A DNA stretch of 64,000 bases, from positions 1 to 64,000 of the forward strand of contig JASGUC010000042.1 in assembly GCA_030057915.1 (NCBI GenBank), written 5' to 3'. Source of the stretch: Pseudomonadota bacterium. GTDB taxonomy: Bacteria > Desulfobacterota > Syntrophia > Syntrophales > UBA8958. Within the stretch, counting starts at the first letter, position 1. Each line of letters opens with the position of its first letter. Under the pieces are notes generated by a model. It saw only the letters and a program-made list of their open reading frames with translations. It made no database searches and had not been told where the DNA came from. The translations under genes were made by a program, and so were the position numbers. This document shows positions 57,157 to 63,890 of this stretch, piece by piece.

Positions 57157-58056
57157 TTACTCCTGGGCCCGCCGCAGGTACTCCTGCCACTTGCCGTCCA
57201 CCCAGCGCTGCGTCTGGTGGAGCTGCTCGATGTTCATCCTCCGGAATCTGCCCTGTTTTTCCAGATAGTTGATCACCGGCAGGCGGTTGCCTCTTTCGGC
57301 CATGGACTTGCTCCGGCCGGTGAAGCGGAAACGCCCGTTTTCGATCTCGAAGAGGGGGGCGATGCCCGTTTCCACGGCCAGGCGTCCCATCTTCACCGTA
57401 TCCTTGGGCGGATAGGCCCACCCCGGGGGGCAGGGGATGTAGAGATGGATGTAGCGGGTGCCCCGGATCTTCTTGGCCTTGACGAACTTGTCGTAAAGAT
57501 CGATGGGATAGGATGGCGACGCCGTGGCCAGATAGGCGATGTCATGGGCCTCCATGATCTTGATGAAGTCCTTCTTGTGCTGCTGCTTCGTCGCGATGGG
57601 GGTGGTGGTCGTGAGGGCCCCCAGGGGGGTGGCGCTGGAGCGCTGGGTCCCCGTGTTCATGTAGCCCTCGTTGTCGTAACAGACGTAGATGAAATCCGTG
57701 CCCCGTTCGGCGGCCCCGCTCAAGGCCTGGATGCCCATGTCGAAGGTGCCACCGTCGCCGGCGATGGCCATGACGGTGATGTCCGACCGGTTCATCGCCT
57801 GGAGGCCCGCCACCAGGCCGGAAGCCGAGGCGGCGGTGCTGGCGAAGGAATTGTTAAGGCAGGGGATCATCACCGGCGTGCTGGGATAGATGCCGTGGAG
57901 GACGCACAGACAGCTTGCGGGCAGGGTGACGATGGTGTTCTCCCGCAGGGCCTTGAGGGCGTAGCGGTAGGCGAGGGAAAGGCCGCAGCCCTGACAGGCC
58001 CGGGTTCCCGGGAGGATGTACTCCTTTGCGTTGATTTTAAATAGATTTTCCGGCAT
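57157..58056 (-). CDS. 2-oxoacid:ferredoxin oxidoreductase, beta subunit (POR/VOR type)
   Basis: A 299-residue thiamine diphosphate subunit. ACQGCGLSLAYR (Cys21, Cys24), followed by SCLC, gives the Fe-S ligands expected of PorB/VorB. The TPP-magnesium motif starts at GDGGTFDMG and ends near DNEGYMNTG. It catalyses decarboxylation of a 2-oxoacid to acyl-CoA with ferredoxin, or the reverse. It is the last gene of a gamma-delta-alpha-beta operon, 4 bases after the alpha gene. The substrate is not fixed by sequence; the upstream leucine-type leader points to branched-chain 2-oxoacids. Confidence 0.9.
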   Translation of the reverse strand: MPENLFKINAKEYILPGTRACQGCGLSLAYRYALKALRENTIVTLPASCLCVLHGIYPSTPVMIPCLNNSFASTAASASGLVAGLQAMNRSDITVMAIAGDGGTFDMGIQALSGAAERGTDFIYVCYDNEGYMNTGTQRSSATPLGALTTTTPIATKQQHKKDFIKIMEAHDIAYLATASPSYPIDLYDKFVKAKKIRGTRYIHLYIPCPPGWAYPPKDTVKMGRLAVETGIAPLFEIENGRFRFTGRSKSMAERGNRLPVINYLEKQGRFRRMNIEQLHQTQRWVDGKWQEYLRRAQE

Positions 58057-58060
58057 TTTT

Positions 58061-59269
58061 TCACCCCGTGAAGCAGTTGAGCCATGATGTTGGCTGTTCG
58101 TGAATCCCCTTTTCCATTGCCTGCCAGGACGCCCGGGCGGCGTCGGCGAGTTCCCGGGCCTTGACGTCCCGGCCGCCGAGGCCGGCGATGTAGTTATGGA
58201 TCGGCGCCTGGCGCTCCGCCCGGTAAAGGGCGGCCTTGAGGTCGGAGCATAGGGGGCCTTCGTACCCGTAACTGATCCCCTTCTCGAAGATCACGATCCC
58301 CCGGGCCTTCTGGAATGCCTCCCGCAGGGCCTGGGCCGGGAAGGGCCGGAAGACGCGGACGCCGACGGTCCCGGCCCTTATGCCCTCCTGTCGCAACATG
58401 TCGGCGGCCTTCGTAGCCTCGCTGGCCATGGAGCCCAGCCCCACGAGATAGAATTCCGCATCCTCGGTGAGGTATTCCCAGAACAATCCCCCGTGATCCC
58501 GGCCGAAGACCGAGGCGAAGTCCCGGTTCGTCTCCTGGATGACCGCGGGCGTCTTCTCCAGGGCCGCCTGGAGCTTGTAGCGCATCTCCATATAGCCGTC
58601 GCAGAGGACGCCGGCGCTGTTTTCCCGCCGCCAGGGAAACAGGACGGGGTTGAGGTTCCGGGGGTCCTCCGGGGAGAGGATGGTATGGGGCTGGTAGGGC
58701 GGCAGGAATTCCCGGACCCGGGCCGCCGCCGGGACGGCGACGGGCATCATGGTGTGGGACAGAACGAAGCCGTCGTAACAGACCATCACCGGGACATACA
58801 CCGCCTCGGCGATGCGGTAGGCCTGGATCACCGTATCGAGGATCTCCTGGTTGTTGCGGCAGTATATCTGGATCCAGCCGGTGTCGCGCTGGGCGAGGGA
58901 GTCCTGCTGGTCGTTGAAGATCGTCCAGGGGGCCCCGACGCCGCGGTTCACGCAGCACATGACGATGGGAAGCCGGGAACCGGCGGCCCAGTGGAGCTGT
59001 TCGTGCATGTAGAGGAGGCCGTTGGCGCTGGTGGCGGTGAAGACCCGGGCGCCCACCGTGGAAGCGGAGATGCATACGGTCAGGGCCGTATGTTCCCCTT
59101 CGACCCGGACGTATTCGGCCCTCAACTCGCCGCCTTCGATGTATTGGGAGAGGATCTCCGCCAGTTGGGACTGGGGGGTGATGGGGTAGGCGGCGACGAC
59201 CTGCACGGCGCTCAGTTTGGCCCCGATGGCCGCCGCGGAGTTGCCGGTCATGATCTGGACATCATTCAT
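58061..59269 (-). CDS. 2-oxoacid:ferredoxin oxidoreductase, alpha subunit (POR/VOR type)
   Basis: A 402-residue subunit with the pyrimidine-binding domain of the TPP fold: GNSAAAIGAKLSAVQVVAAYPITPQS at the N-terminus, EHTALTVCISASTVGARVFTATSANGL, then the domain II and C-terminal segment (VRVFRPFPAQALREAF). YPITPQS is characteristic of PorA/VorB-type alpha chains. It overlaps the delta gene by 8 bases. Confidence 0.92.
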   Translation of the reverse strand: MNDVQIMTGNSAAAIGAKLSAVQVVAAYPITPQSQLAEILSQYIEGGELRAEYVRVEGEHTALTVCISASTVGARVFTATSANGLLYMHEQLHWAAGSRLPIVMCCVNRGVGAPWTIFNDQQDSLAQRDTGWIQIYCRNNQEILDTVIQAYRIAEAVYVPVMVCYDGFVLSHTMMPVAVPAAARVREFLPPYQPHTILSPEDPRNLNPVLFPWRRENSAGVLCDGYMEMRYKLQAALEKTPAVIQETNRDFASVFGRDHGGLFWEYLTEDAEFYLVGLGSMASEATKAADMLRQEGIRAGTVGVRVFRPFPAQALREAFQKARGIVIFEKGISYGYEGPLCSDLKAALYRAERQAPIHNYIAGLGGRDVKARELADAARASWQAMEKGIHEQPTSWLNCFTG

Positions 59270-59558
59270 TGTCTTCGCCCTCCCTAACCATGGTGATGGC
59301 CTTGGCCGGGCATTCCTCGGCGCAGATGCCGCAGCCCTTGCAGTAATCCAGGTCGATTTCCACCGTTATCCCCGCCTTGACCACCCCTTCGGGACAGTAT
59401 AGCCAGCAGAGGAAGCAGGCGGCCTTTTTCTTTACGGCGGGGATGCAGCGGCTGTGGTCGATGACGGGGCGTAGGCTTCGCCAGTCCCCCGTCTTGCCTC
59501 CCTCGCCGATGGCCACGGTGCACATGGCCGAGATGCTGTCGTCTCTTTTTACGTTCAT
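59262..59558 (-). CDS. 2-oxoacid:ferredoxin oxidoreductase, delta subunit (2x[4Fe-4S] ferredoxin)
   Basis: A 98-residue ferredoxin-like subunit. The second cluster motif DYCKGCGICAEECP is canonical (Cx2Cx2Cx3CP). The first cluster reads C-x9-C-x2-C-x3-CP (CIPAVKKKAACFLCWLYCP); usual PorD has Cx2 at the first step, so a Lys/Ala-rich insertion seems to have occurred. The start at ATG 59558 overlaps the gamma stop (ATGA). It carries electrons between the catalytic subunits and ferredoxin. Confidence 0.9.
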   Translation of the reverse strand: MNVKRDDSISAMCTVAIGEGGKTGDWRSLRPVIDHSRCIPAVKKKAACFLCWLYCPEGVVKAGITVEIDLDYCKGCGICAEECPAKAITMVREGEDNE

Positions 59559-60121
59559 GGTTTGTCTCCGAGTTTGGTTTCTTCGTAAGCCGCCTTCACG
59601 GTGGCGAAATTCCTCGCCCCCTGCCCCGGCGGGAGTTTGTGGTTCAGGGCCTTTTCGAGATTGTCCAGGGAGACGAGGCCCGTGGCCCGGGCAAAGGCCC
59701 CCAGCATGGGGGTGTTGACCACCGGCGCCCCCTCCTTGCTCAAATGATGCCTGAGGGCGATGGCGGCGGCATCCACAACGGCCAGGCGGCAGTCCCCCTT
59801 CGTCTCCCATTTCTCCAGAGGCTTCCGAGAGTTGATTATGAGCGCGCCGTCCTTCCGGAGCCGGCTGTAGATGTCCACGACCCGAAAGAGACTTTCGTCG
59901 AGGACCACGGCGATATCCGCCGCCTCGATCTGCGAGAAGATGCGGATCTCCTCCTGGGCGATGCGGGTGGAGGCGGCAACCGGCGCTCCCCTCCTTTCCG
60001 GGCCGAAGGTGGGCGCCGAAGTCACGCCCCGGAAATCCTGGAGATAGGCCGCCTCGGCCAGCATCTGGGCGGCGATTACCACCCCCTGTCCCCCTCTTCC
60101 ATGCCAGATGATTTCGTACAT
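59555..60121 (-). CDS. 2-oxoacid:ferredoxin oxidoreductase, gamma subunit
   Basis: A 188-residue subunit with the gamma signature IIWHGRGGQGVVIAAQMLAEAA and FGPERRGAPVAASTRI. It is the first structural gene of the operon. ATG 60121 follows AAAAAAGGAAGGGAC on the minus strand. A terminator-like hairpin ends 26 bases before the start codon, so expression should depend on readthrough. Confidence 0.93.
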   Translation of the reverse strand: MYEIIWHGRGGQGVVIAAQMLAEAAYLQDFRGVTSAPTFGPERRGAPVAASTRIAQEEIRIFSQIEAADIAVVLDESLFRVVDIYSRLRKDGALIINSRKPLEKWETKGDCRLAVVDAAAIALRHHLSKEGAPVVNTPMLGAFARATGLVSLDNLEKALNHKLPPGQGARNFATVKAAYEETKLGDKP

Positions 60122-60145: not shown

Positions 60146-60184
60146 ATAAAAATAAAAAGGCCACGGATTTTCCACCCGTGGCCT
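60146..60184 (-). terminator. attenuator terminator upstream of the oxidoreductase operon
   Basis: Reading the minus strand, AGGCCACGG (60184-60176) pairs with CCGTGGCCT (60166-60158) and is followed by TTTTATTTTTAT. The loop holds GGGTGG, which can instead pair with CCACCC at 60236-60231. It lies between the leader ORF and the gamma gene. Confidence 0.88.
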
Positions 60185-60212
60185 CTTAGGAATCGTCGTT
60201 GGTTGTGCTCGT

Positions 60213-60326
60213 TTAAGTCCTAAAAACGCCGGGTGGTGGGTACAGGCCCACCAGAAGAAGAGCGAGGCGCAACAACCCGAAGCGTTTGTTCAGCGTCTCC
60301 AATGCCCTTTTTTCGTTACCCGTCAC
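60213..60326 (-). CDS. leucine-rich leader peptide of the oxidoreductase operon
   Basis: A 37-codon ORF starting with GTG (60326), 11 bases after AAAGG, and ending with TAA at 60215-60213. The product has 9 leucines, 7 of them within GLLRLALLLVGL (residues 17-28), encoded by TTG, CTC, CTT and CTG. The DNA of its 3' part makes a hairpin TGGTGGG (60253-60247)/CCCACCA (60240-60234). This is the layout of a leucine-type attenuation leader. It ends 29 bases before the terminator stem. The ORF itself is too short for codon statistics; the call rests on the whole arrangement. Confidence 0.72.
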   Translation of the reverse strand: MTGNEKRALETLNKRFGLLRLALLLVGLYPPPGVFRT

Positions 60327-60357
60327 GTTTCGTATCGCCTTTGAGAAAGTTTTGGGC

Positions 60358-60386
60358 AGCGTAAAATAAAAAACCGGGCTTGTCAA
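60358..60386 (-). promoter_or_regulatory. promoter of the leader/oxidoreductase operon
   Basis: TTGACA (60386-60381 on the minus strand), a 17-base spacer and TACGCT (60363-60358). It would start transcription near 60350, about 25 bases before the leader GTG. Confidence 0.6.
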
Positions 60387-61349: not shown

Positions 61350-63890
61350 ATGAAACGCTGGGCGGTGGCGATCATGGCAATTGGCCTGATCATCGGGGGC
61401 TGTGCGACTACGAATGGGAATGGAAGAGGAAGCGGTGCGAAGGTCGAGCTGGCATTGGCGGCAAAGGTGATCCTTGATGTCGAAGAGTCGGATCAACGCG
61501 GGATCCCAAAGCGCATGGAAGGGCATGCCGCGCTGGCTGCCCTGGTCAGTGCCGTCGCCATATCTCCCGATGGACGCTATGCCGCGTCCGGCCTTAGTGA
61601 TAAAACGATTATGCTTTGGGATATCTCTTCCGGAACCTGCATGCATATTCTCAGCGGTCACCGCGGATCGGTGATATCGCTTGCCTTTTCTCACGACAAT
61701 CGGCAACTCGCTTCCGGAGGCATGGACGGCACCGTTGTCCGCTGGGACATTCTGACGGGAAAAGAGATTTCTTCCCATAAGGATGCTTCCGAGCCCGTCA
61801 ATGCCCTTGCTTTCAGCCAGAACGACAAGGTGTTGATTTCTGCAAACCACAAGCAGGAGATATACATCACGGGCATCTCCCCTGGTGGGATGAACGGTGC
61901 GTTCAAGGTGGGAGAGAGGTCGTCCGCCGGCACTAATCTGGATTTCACTCCCTATGCCTTCTCTGGAGACGGGCGCCATGTCCTGACGGTACATGAAGGA
62001 GTTTCGCTATCGCTGTGGGATGTGACCGCCCGGCGGGAGGTCAAGAAAATTTCCGGAGATTATGGCACCATCACGGCGCTGGCGTTTTCTCCGGACGGTC
62101 GCCGGGCCCTGGTGGGGAATTCCCGAGGGAGGCTGAAACTCATCGATATAGGCGCGGATAAAGAGATCCTCACCTTTTCGGGTCATTCCGGATTAGTGCG
62201 CAGCGTAGCCTTTTCCACGGACGGTAAGAACGCCTTTTCCGGCAGCTACGACGAAACGGTAAAGATGTGGGATACGGTCACCGGTAAAGAGATCAGGACA
62301 TTCCGCGGTCACGCCAACAATGTAAGAAGCATTGCCGTCGCCCCTGACGGCTTGCTCCTCATATCGGGCAGCACGGACACCACCTCCCGGATCTGGAATG
62401 TAAAAACCGGGCAAGAGATCGTTACCATGGTCAAATTCATCAAATATCTGCCCCCGATGTTCATGAAGGCCGATGTGGCGGCAAGGGAGGATGAATTCAA
62501 AGACCTGCGTGATGCCTGGGTAATTTTGACTCCGGACGGCTACTATGCAGGATCGGCAAGCGCCCTCGGCAACATGAAGGTAACCAAAGGCGCGTGGTTT
62601 TACCTGATCGACCAGTTTTACGATGTCTTCTACCGTCCGGACATAATCGCCGCCAGGCTGCACGGCGAAGACACCACGGGTCTGGTTACGCTCACCATGG
62701 AAGATGCCCTGAAGAATCCCCCTCCGGAGGTGAAGCTGTCGAACGTTCCGAGGAACTCGGGGGAGACAACCCTAAAAATCAAATATAAAGTGGAAAGCAA
62801 CGGGGGTGGAATCGGCGAGATCCGCATCTTCCATAACGGCAAATTGGTGAAATCAGACGGCTATTACCGGGAAACGAAAAGACCGGCGGCGGACAAGGTG
62901 GGGTTGGCGTATTATTCCGGACAAGCGGTGCGGGAGGAAATGCGGAGCATCGTTATTGCGGGCCGACAGCAAGGCAAGGCCAGCATGATCGAGGCGCCGC
63001 CGAAGGGAGACTCCGTGGCCGGCGAGGTGGCGATCCATCCCGTGCCGGGAGAGAATGAGGTCGGCATTGCCGCCTTCAACAAGGACAATACCGTCCAGAG
63101 TATGATCAAGACGGCGACTTTCGCTTCCACACTCAAGGCGGAGGAGCCCCGACTGTTTGTCCTGTCTGTTGGCATCGATGAATATAAAGCGTCGGATGAA
63201 AACCTGCGTTTTGCCGTGAAGGACGCCGAAAGTTTCGCACGCCTAATCGAGACAGAATCACTGACTCAATACAAAGCCAGCGGGATCCATGTGCGGATAC
63301 TGAAGAACGGGGAGGCCACCAAGTCTGGGATAAAAACGGCGATCGCGGAGATGACGCGGGCCGTTAAACCGAATGATGTCTTCCTCTTCTTCATTGCCGG
63401 ACATGGGGTTCTGCACGGAGGGCTATACGCGATCGTGACCCACGACTTCGGGGGAAGCTTGCACCAGGACTGTCTGATCACTTCCAATGAGATTATGGAA
63501 TTGTCAAAGGATATCAAATCGCTCAAGCAGATATTCATTCTGGATACCTGTCATGCCGGAGGACTCGACACCTTCATCGGCGGCCTTTACGACGCCCGCA
63601 TGTCGGTACTGGCCCGTAACATGGGTTTGCATATGTTCGCTTCGGCCAGTTCTACTCAGAAAGCCCTGGACGGTTTCAAGGGCAAGAATGGCATGTTCAC
63701 CTATGCCCTGTTGGAAGCCCTTGACAACAATCGGAGCGTCGATGCCAACAAGGATGGCCGGGTGAGCATTTATGAACTCGGAAGTTATGCCAAAATGCTG
63801 ACCATCAAGTATTCTCGTGAGTCGGGGTATCAGCAGACGCCGGTCGTCAACAATTTTGGCAAGGATGTTCCGGTTTACATCCTCCATTGA
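61350..63890 (+). CDS. lipoprotein with WD40 repeats and C-terminal caspase-like (C14) protease domain
   Basis: An 846-residue protein. The signal peptide ends in a lipobox LIIGGC with the lipidated Cys at residue 18, followed by Ala-Thr (outer-membrane type). WD40 repeats run from about 55 to 365 (for example ILSGHRGSVISLAFSHDNRQ, FSGHSGLVRSVAFSTDGK and FRGHANNVRSIAVAPDG). A middle beta-rich region (about 450-600) precedes a caspase-fold domain (about 610-846) starting RLFVLSVGIDEYK, with catalytic His685 in FFIAGHG and Cys734 in ILDTCHAGG. An EF-hand-like loop DANKDGRVSIYE lies near residues 796-807. ATG 61350 follows AAAGGAGA. Probably a sensor-protease anchored at the envelope; the trigger and substrate are unknown. 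Confidence 0.9.
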   Translation: MKRWAVAIMAIGLIIGGCATTNGNGRGSGAKVELALAAKVILDVEESDQRGIPKRMEGHAALAALVSAVAISPDGRYAASGLSDKTIMLWDISSGTCMHILSGHRGSVISLAFSHDNRQLASGGMDGTVVRWDILTGKEISSHKDASEPVNALAFSQNDKVLISANHKQEIYITGISPGGMNGAFKVGERSSAGTNLDFTPYAFSGDGRHVLTVHEGVSLSLWDVTARREVKKISGDYGTITALAFSPDGRRALVGNSRGRLKLIDIGADKEILTFSGHSGLVRSVAFSTDGKNAFSGSYDETVKMWDTVTGKEIRTFRGHANNVRSIAVAPDGLLLISGSTDTTSRIWNVKTGQEIVTMVKFIKYLPPMFMKADVAAREDEFKDLRDAWVILTPDGYYAGSASALGNMKVTKGAWFYLIDQFYDVFYRPDIIAARLHGEDTTGLVTLTMEDALKNPPPEVKLSNVPRNSGETTLKIKYKVESNGGGIGEIRIFHNGKLVKSDGYYRETKRPAADKVGLAYYSGQAVREEMRSIVIAGRQQGKASMIEAPPKGDSVAGEVAIHPVPGENEVGIAAFNKDNTVQSMIKTATFASTLKAEEPRLFVLSVGIDEYKASDENLRFAVKDAESFARLIETESLTQYKASGIHVRILKNGEATKSGIKTAIAEMTRAVKPNDVFLFFIAGHGVLHGGLYAIVTHDFGGSLHQDCLITSNEIMELSKDIKSLKQIFILDTCHAGGLDTFIGGLYDARMSVLARNMGLHMFASASSTQKALDGFKGKNGMFTYALLEALDNNRSVDANKDGRVSIYELGSYAKMLTIKYSRESGYQQTPVVNNFGKDVPVYILH

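Follow-up and report, generated by a model that had tools for sequence, protein, structure and literature searches.

A porCDAB-type operon encoding a 2-oxoacid:ferredoxin oxidoreductase (OFOR), on the minus strand of the window (the whole 64,000-nt stretch of DNA analysed here), is very probably controlled by a classical ribosome-mediated transcription attenuator that senses charged Leu-tRNA and is homologous to the leader of leuA. This high confidence attaches to the attenuator and leaves out any claim on the direction or substrate of the enzyme. The anatomy of the leader, its conservation, the covariation of its alternative helices and its sharing with leuA are documented below. The mechanism is the already known classical one; what appears, from sequence comparison, to be new is such a leader on an OFOR operon in Syntrophales, relatives of Syntrophus, which would extend leader-peptide attenuation to this order and also to a class of enzymes with no described attenuator in the literature covered. 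The occurrence of the leader before both OFOR and leuA operons points to leucine synthesis as the use of the oxidoreductase, probably through addition of CO2 to a branched-chain acid. The amino acid to which an attenuator responds can be read from it, which here gives a direct hint at the physiological direction of the oxidoreductase and at its product, where the sequence of the enzyme cannot tell the substrate.

Anatomy of the leader

The initial annotation had described, along the minus strand, a TTGACA promoter, a GTG-started 37-codon ORF with seven Leu in 12 residues, a 7-bp hairpin (TGGTGGG/CCCACCA) inside that ORF and a terminator with a T-rich tail before the gamma gene, and each of these elements was located (Table 1). 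Nearly all leaders of orthologs likewise carry TTGACA and, at a similar distance, a TANNNT-like −10; a generic promoter scan of the region left the TTGACA/TACGCT pair unscored because its −10 is weak. When the leader region was shuffled 3000 times with dinucleotides preserved, a short ORF with at least seven Leu within 12 residues arose twice. The terminator, which sits between the leader ORF and the gamma gene, has a stem of 14 bp and not the 9 bp first assigned to it. Likewise, the proposed pairing of CCACCCG with CGGGTGG is present, but forms one end of a longer helix (60236-60218/60191-60172).

Table 1. Features of the leader and of the OFOR operon in the window.
Feature	Position	Strand	Description and basis
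Promoter	60358-60386	-	TTGACA 60386-60381, 17-nt spacer, TACGCT 60363-60358; read directly, predicted
Leader peptide ORF	60213-60326	-	GTG start, 37 codons, MTGNEKRALETLNKRFGLLRLALLLVGLYPPPGVFRT; putative; Leu run GLLRLALLLVGL
Hairpin 1:2	60234-60253	-	TGGTGGG 60253-60247 with CCCACCA 60240-60234; fold, covariation
Segment 2 (antiterminator 5′ strand)	60218-60236	-	CCACCCGGCGTTTTTAGGA; fold, pairing tests
Segment 3 (antiterminator 3′ strand and terminator 5′ arm)	60172-60191	-	TCCTAAGAGGCCACGGGTGG; fold, pairing tests
Intrinsic terminator 3:4	60155-60187	-	14 bp and T-rich tail; −23.1 kcal/mol, z −6.6
OFOR gamma subunit (PorC/KorC family)	59555-60121	-	TIGR02175, 184 bits, above cut-off; PF01558
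OFOR delta subunit (4Fe-4S ferredoxin)	59262-59558	-	Fer4 domains above cut-off
OFOR alpha subunit	58061-59269	-	PF01855, PF17147
OFOR beta subunit (TPP)	57157-58056	-	PF02775

Folding from the Leu codons onward gave hairpin 1:2 together with the terminator (−40.3 kcal/mol, z −3.0). The hairpin starts in the last Leu codons, which run into its 5′ arm (60253-60247). When 60238-60170 was folded as an isolated segment, without the 5′ arm of 1:2, segments 2 and 3 formed the long helix (−23.0 kcal/mol, z −3.8). Because this antiterminator takes the 5′ arm of the terminator into its own helix, the two pairings are mutually exclusive. Helices 1:2 and 2:3 overlap by 3 nt in the window leader, and in some relatives the relation is mostly one of adjacency.

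The steps of ribosome stalling and readthrough are drawn from established attenuation. With ample leucine, the ribosome would run to the stop codon and cover segment 2 (60236-60218), and the terminator 3:4 would form. With leucine in short supply, the ribosome would stall in the Leu run, where it covers the 5′ arm of hairpin 1:2; pairing of segment 2 with segment 3 (60191-60172) would follow, and the operon would be transcribed with no terminator formed. Amino-acid attenuators raise expression when their amino acid is scarce. The leader has the parts expected of this class: a short Leu-rich ORF predicted to be translated, a terminator, an antiterminator that excludes it and a hairpin 1:2 that could act as protector.

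Conservation of the leader RNA and its sharing with leuA

The same leader was found upstream of orthologous gamma genes across the order Syntrophales, in relatives that are mostly metagenome-assembled genomes. The homologous ORFs start with ATG or GTG and have a mean Leu content of 24% in 37 OFOR leaders; for the leader peptides in general, a Leu content of 24-26% was obtained. The peptides differ in sequence (MTSIGARRELLSLKGLLCLALLLLLRTYRSPVVFRI; MTERRRDELVNETLLLSLVLCLALLLMGLNPSPVVFRKS; MTGEYKRSNSILFELLLCLLLLVLSLSIARRF), and in nearly all of them the Leu run is followed by the RNA consensus GCCCGTCGTTTTTAGG...CCTAAAGGCCATGGG...CCATGGCCTTTT.

Both alternative helices are supported by covariation and by partner-swap tests. 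In the terminator, 97.9% of cells are paired (24 leaders/species), with a UA/CG double change in six. Hairpin 1:2 covaries at two pairs, where both sides have changed in eight and four of the 24 sequences, and the antiterminator is 83.8% paired in the same number of leaders, as against 38-57% in slid registers. Among 66 leaders, uncorrected for relatedness, native 2:3 partners pair at −21.0 kcal/mol, swapped partners at −18.7 kcal/mol (z −8.5) and shuffled partners at −11.1 kcal/mol; the preference for native over swapped partners holds within the OFOR (z −5.5) and leuA (z −4.5) classes, again uncorrected for relatedness. The original proposal called for Leu codons and covarying helices to be sought in relatives and named lack of conservation of the leader ORF or helices among the outcomes that would refute it; no refuting outcome appeared. 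The conservation of the ORF, the Leu run and the helices, and the covariation of the latter, bear out the reading as a classical attenuator, and the elements and comparative signal at this locus are real and not due to chance.

Leucine specificity, which had been proposed from the Leu codons, could be assessed through the genes that the leader precedes. A covariance model built from 24 OFOR leaders only was run on 155 genomes of Syntrophales and matched 142 of them. Among the 150 matches listed, 59 lie before OFOR gamma genes, 81 before leuA and eight elsewhere, mostly at contig edges; no further copy was found within the genome of the window (G000). The leuA leaders head leuA-leuC-leuD-leuB operons, in which leuA was assigned by family model and the other genes were named by eye. 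The presence of a homologous leader before leuA in these genomes identifies leucine independently as the signal, and the leader common to both operons places the OFOR operon in the leucine regulon of Syntrophales. Other orders of the phylum have leuA leaders of this type too (L109, L112 and L114), whereas no OFOR copy was seen outside Syntrophales; the OFOR leader therefore probably derives from the leuA leader.

Records with a name among the matches are Syntrophus, Smithella and Syntrophaceae metagenome-assembled genomes, and one metagenome-assembled genome that bears the label Verrucomicrobia; the NCBI lineage is Thermodesulfobacteriota, Syntrophia, Syntrophales. Weak scores of the model were not counted as evidence of a leucine leader, since most weak matches outside Syntrophales are other attenuators that share the terminator sequence, such as aromatic leaders before DAHP-synthase-like genes. 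One genome (G047) has two near-identical OFOR-type leaders, on contigs C48 and C79; because both end at contig edges, its OFOR operon is probably duplicated and unassembled.

The oxidoreductase and its proposed role

The genes downstream of the leader have the order gamma-delta-alpha-beta, as initially described. The gamma gene starts at an ATG (60121) with a good Shine-Dalgarno sequence, and the start of delta and its 4-nt overlap with gamma were deduced from the reading frame. TIGR02175 and the Pfam domains, all above cut-off, assign the operon to the pyruvate/2-ketoisovalerate:ferredoxin oxidoreductase family. Within this family, the alpha subunit scores 426.7 bits with PorA_Arch, 368.5 with the alpha model of 2-ketoisovalerate oxidoreductase (VOR) and 342.1 with Pyrococcus-type POR alpha, all below cut-off. 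The beta subunit scores 367.6 bits with VOR beta and 343.4 with the pyruvate synthase PorB equivalog, both under the curated cut-off of 405. NCBIfam score differences amount to 7-33 bits, in a comparison in which no alpha or beta model reaches its cut-off. Three relatives show the same lean, with VOR above PorB for beta and above Pyrococcus-type POR for alpha, but with PorA_Arch higher still. The operon is a stand-alone four-gene unit whose neighbours give no clue to the substrate; it contains no acyl-CoA ligase, and a plasmid search gave no match.

The genome of the window, estimated to be 100% complete, and six of its seven congeners have no LeuA, the nearest protein being citramalate synthase. 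In the set of 108 genomes with a completeness of 90% or more, the OFOR occurs in 19 of the 24 that are LeuA-less and in 39 of the 84 that have LeuA (Fisher p 0.005, uncorrected for phylogeny); G047 was counted as OFOR-bearing because contig edges cut off its leaders. Counted by hand per genus, the association weakens to 13/14 and 24/36, respectively. Five near-complete genomes (G002, G004, G010, G042 and G088) have neither LeuA nor this OFOR, and in some, therefore, leucine must come from elsewhere.

An OFOR under an attenuator should supply the scarce amino acid, which for leucine means carboxylation of isovaleryl-CoA. There is roughly an even chance that the enzyme is anabolic, converting isovaleryl-CoA, CO2 and reduced ferredoxin to 2-oxoisocaproate, which would yield leucine by transamination, beside or instead of LeuA. 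The initial annotation had likewise favoured a branched-chain 2-oxoacid and, tentatively, the carboxylating direction; the absence of LeuA from the genome of the window and most congeners, the higher frequency of the OFOR in LeuA-less genomes and the lean toward VOR support this indirectly, and stop short of proof. The proposed reaction and direction are those of isovalerate carboxylation to leucine in rumen anaerobes, known from labelling (Allison, cited in PMC7356843); its assignment to the gene set described here is one that we infer. With this assignment, the long-standing question of the gene behind the carboxylation could be put to the test on concrete genes, and there would be a candidate explanation for leucine synthesis in LeuA-less syntrophs.

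A real attenuator could also control a pyruvate synthase (acetyl-CoA + CO2 to pyruvate), with leucine as a proxy for the demand for pyruvate-family amino acids; fatty-acid-degrading syntrophs would need pyruvate only for biosynthesis. We regard a leucine-regulated pyruvate synthase as rather unlikely, though as a serious rival. It agrees with archaeal PorA as the best single alpha model and with 9bt4, a pyruvate:ferredoxin oxidoreductase, as the nearest solved structure, although the nearest structures do not settle the substrate. Enzymes of the OFOR class are also often promiscuous. However, the genome of the window encodes a paralogous OFOR on contig C17 that does pass the PorB cut-off (428.1 versus 405 bits) and is not under this leader. 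Moreover, gamma orthologs are absent from many near-complete Syntrophales genomes, codons for leucine only would be odd for an enzyme making a general precursor, and the operon is enriched where LeuA is absent.

Catabolic oxidation of branched-chain 2-oxoacids from leucine degradation, with the attenuator serving another purpose, is very unlikely. In archaea, VOR enzymes do function in peptide fermentation and can run in both directions (Heider 1996, cited in PMC7238569), but an attenuator of this kind raises expression at leucine scarcity, the opposite of what a leucine degrader needs, and leuA is under the same switch. It is also very unlikely that duplication of the leuA leader left an inert relic here, now a constitutive terminator. 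In two decayed OFOR leaders (L024 and L180), the terminator is retained but both the Leu run and helix 2:3 are gone, and in two genomes the OFOR lies behind an hflX-like gene without a leader. Most copies, that of the window included, are nevertheless complete, and native partners in helix 2:3 pair more strongly than swapped ones. A leader acting through ribosome arrest by its specific peptide, or as a sensor of translation in general in place of tRNA-Leu, is very unlikely too, and the arrest reading was rejected: the leader has a PPPG stretch and the C-terminus is conserved within some groups, but the conserved nucleotides CGCCCGTCGTTTTTAGG are read in three frames across homologous leaders (PVVFR, ARRF-stop and RPSFLG), showing that conservation acts on the RNA and not on the peptide, apart from the Leu run, which is kept together with the helices.

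Known systems and other leaders

The leucine attenuator resembles the gamma-proteobacterial leuL, ilvL and trpL attenuators in its ORF rich in the regulating amino acid, its 1:2, 2:3 and 3:4 pairings and the geometry of codons relative to segment 1. It differs from them in its host, a member of the Thermodesulfobacteriota (Syntrophales), and in its target, a ferredoxin oxidoreductase operon. None of the Rfam leader models matched the window leader at gathering score, and only chance matches appeared at E values up to 10. A survey of RNA regulons lists Rfam leader attenuators for only four amino acids, suggests a gamma-proteobacterial origin for them and reports T-boxes in Geobacter (PMC3766115). 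The T-box riboswitch also senses amino-acid supply through tRNA; its covariance model matched neither the leader nor G000, and this identity was rejected. The Syntrophales leuA leader shares the RNA consensus and the Leu run and is found by the same covariance model, but it controls leuA-leuC-leuD-leuB, reads the conserved segment in another frame and occurs in other orders as well. Archaeal PorCDAB and VorCDAB have the same four-subunit gene order and domains; unlike these, the window subunits fall below both cut-offs, lean toward VOR (beta and one alpha comparison) and are under leucine attenuation. As the initial annotation had supposed, no paper on an attenuator before an OFOR was found in a search of largely open-access literature.

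A second OFOR in Syntrophales has a leader of its own. Leader ORFs with a stretch of three or four Trp codons in a row (e.g. MDVQIRQPNLWWWRSLHRKAGVQVCGG) were seen upstream of iorA, which encodes the alpha subunit of indolepyruvate:ferredoxin oxidoreductase (IOR), in L192 (G138), L200, L201, L203, L204, L205 and L206. Of eight close orthologs, seven have such a leader, and in five of these a terminator can be recognised; most of the leaders are followed by one of the GCCGTGG/CCACGGC type. The Trp leader before IorA counts in favour of the role proposed for the OFOR of the window. A broader proposal, to which we give somewhat less than an even chance, is that leucine and, through IOR, tryptophan are produced in Syntrophales by reductive carboxylation of acyl-CoA with dedicated OFORs, each under an attenuator responding to its own product. 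In this tentative scheme, the leucine enzyme would have replaced LeuA in several lineages, including the genus of the window, and the attenuator would identify the genes for isovalerate carboxylation, a route so far known from biochemistry only.

Leaders rich in Phe, Tyr and Trp (e.g. NIGFYGYWFYTYFASVCPLLRRTC) and with a similar style of terminator were observed in Syntrophales (L183, L184, L190 and L199) and in other orders (L115 and L116), preceding DAHP-synthase-like and then aroB- and pheA-like genes, all named by eye. A Phe-rich leader, MILYGIGRADFNFFGFFFFFGEVCLLPS, lies before genes for a periplasmic binding protein, an ABC-type protein and an AMP-binding enzyme (L191, G021:C93), possibly for uptake and activation of phenylacetate. 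A weak match to the model corresponds to a possible Lys/Arg-rich leader before a dapA-like gene (L185, G064:C38). Elsewhere in the window, on the plus strand at 61350-63890 and downstream of a divergent SDR gene, an ORF of 846 aa was read by eye as lipoprotein-like, as containing repeats of the WD40-like type and as resembling a caspase in a C-terminal stretch (CHAGG).
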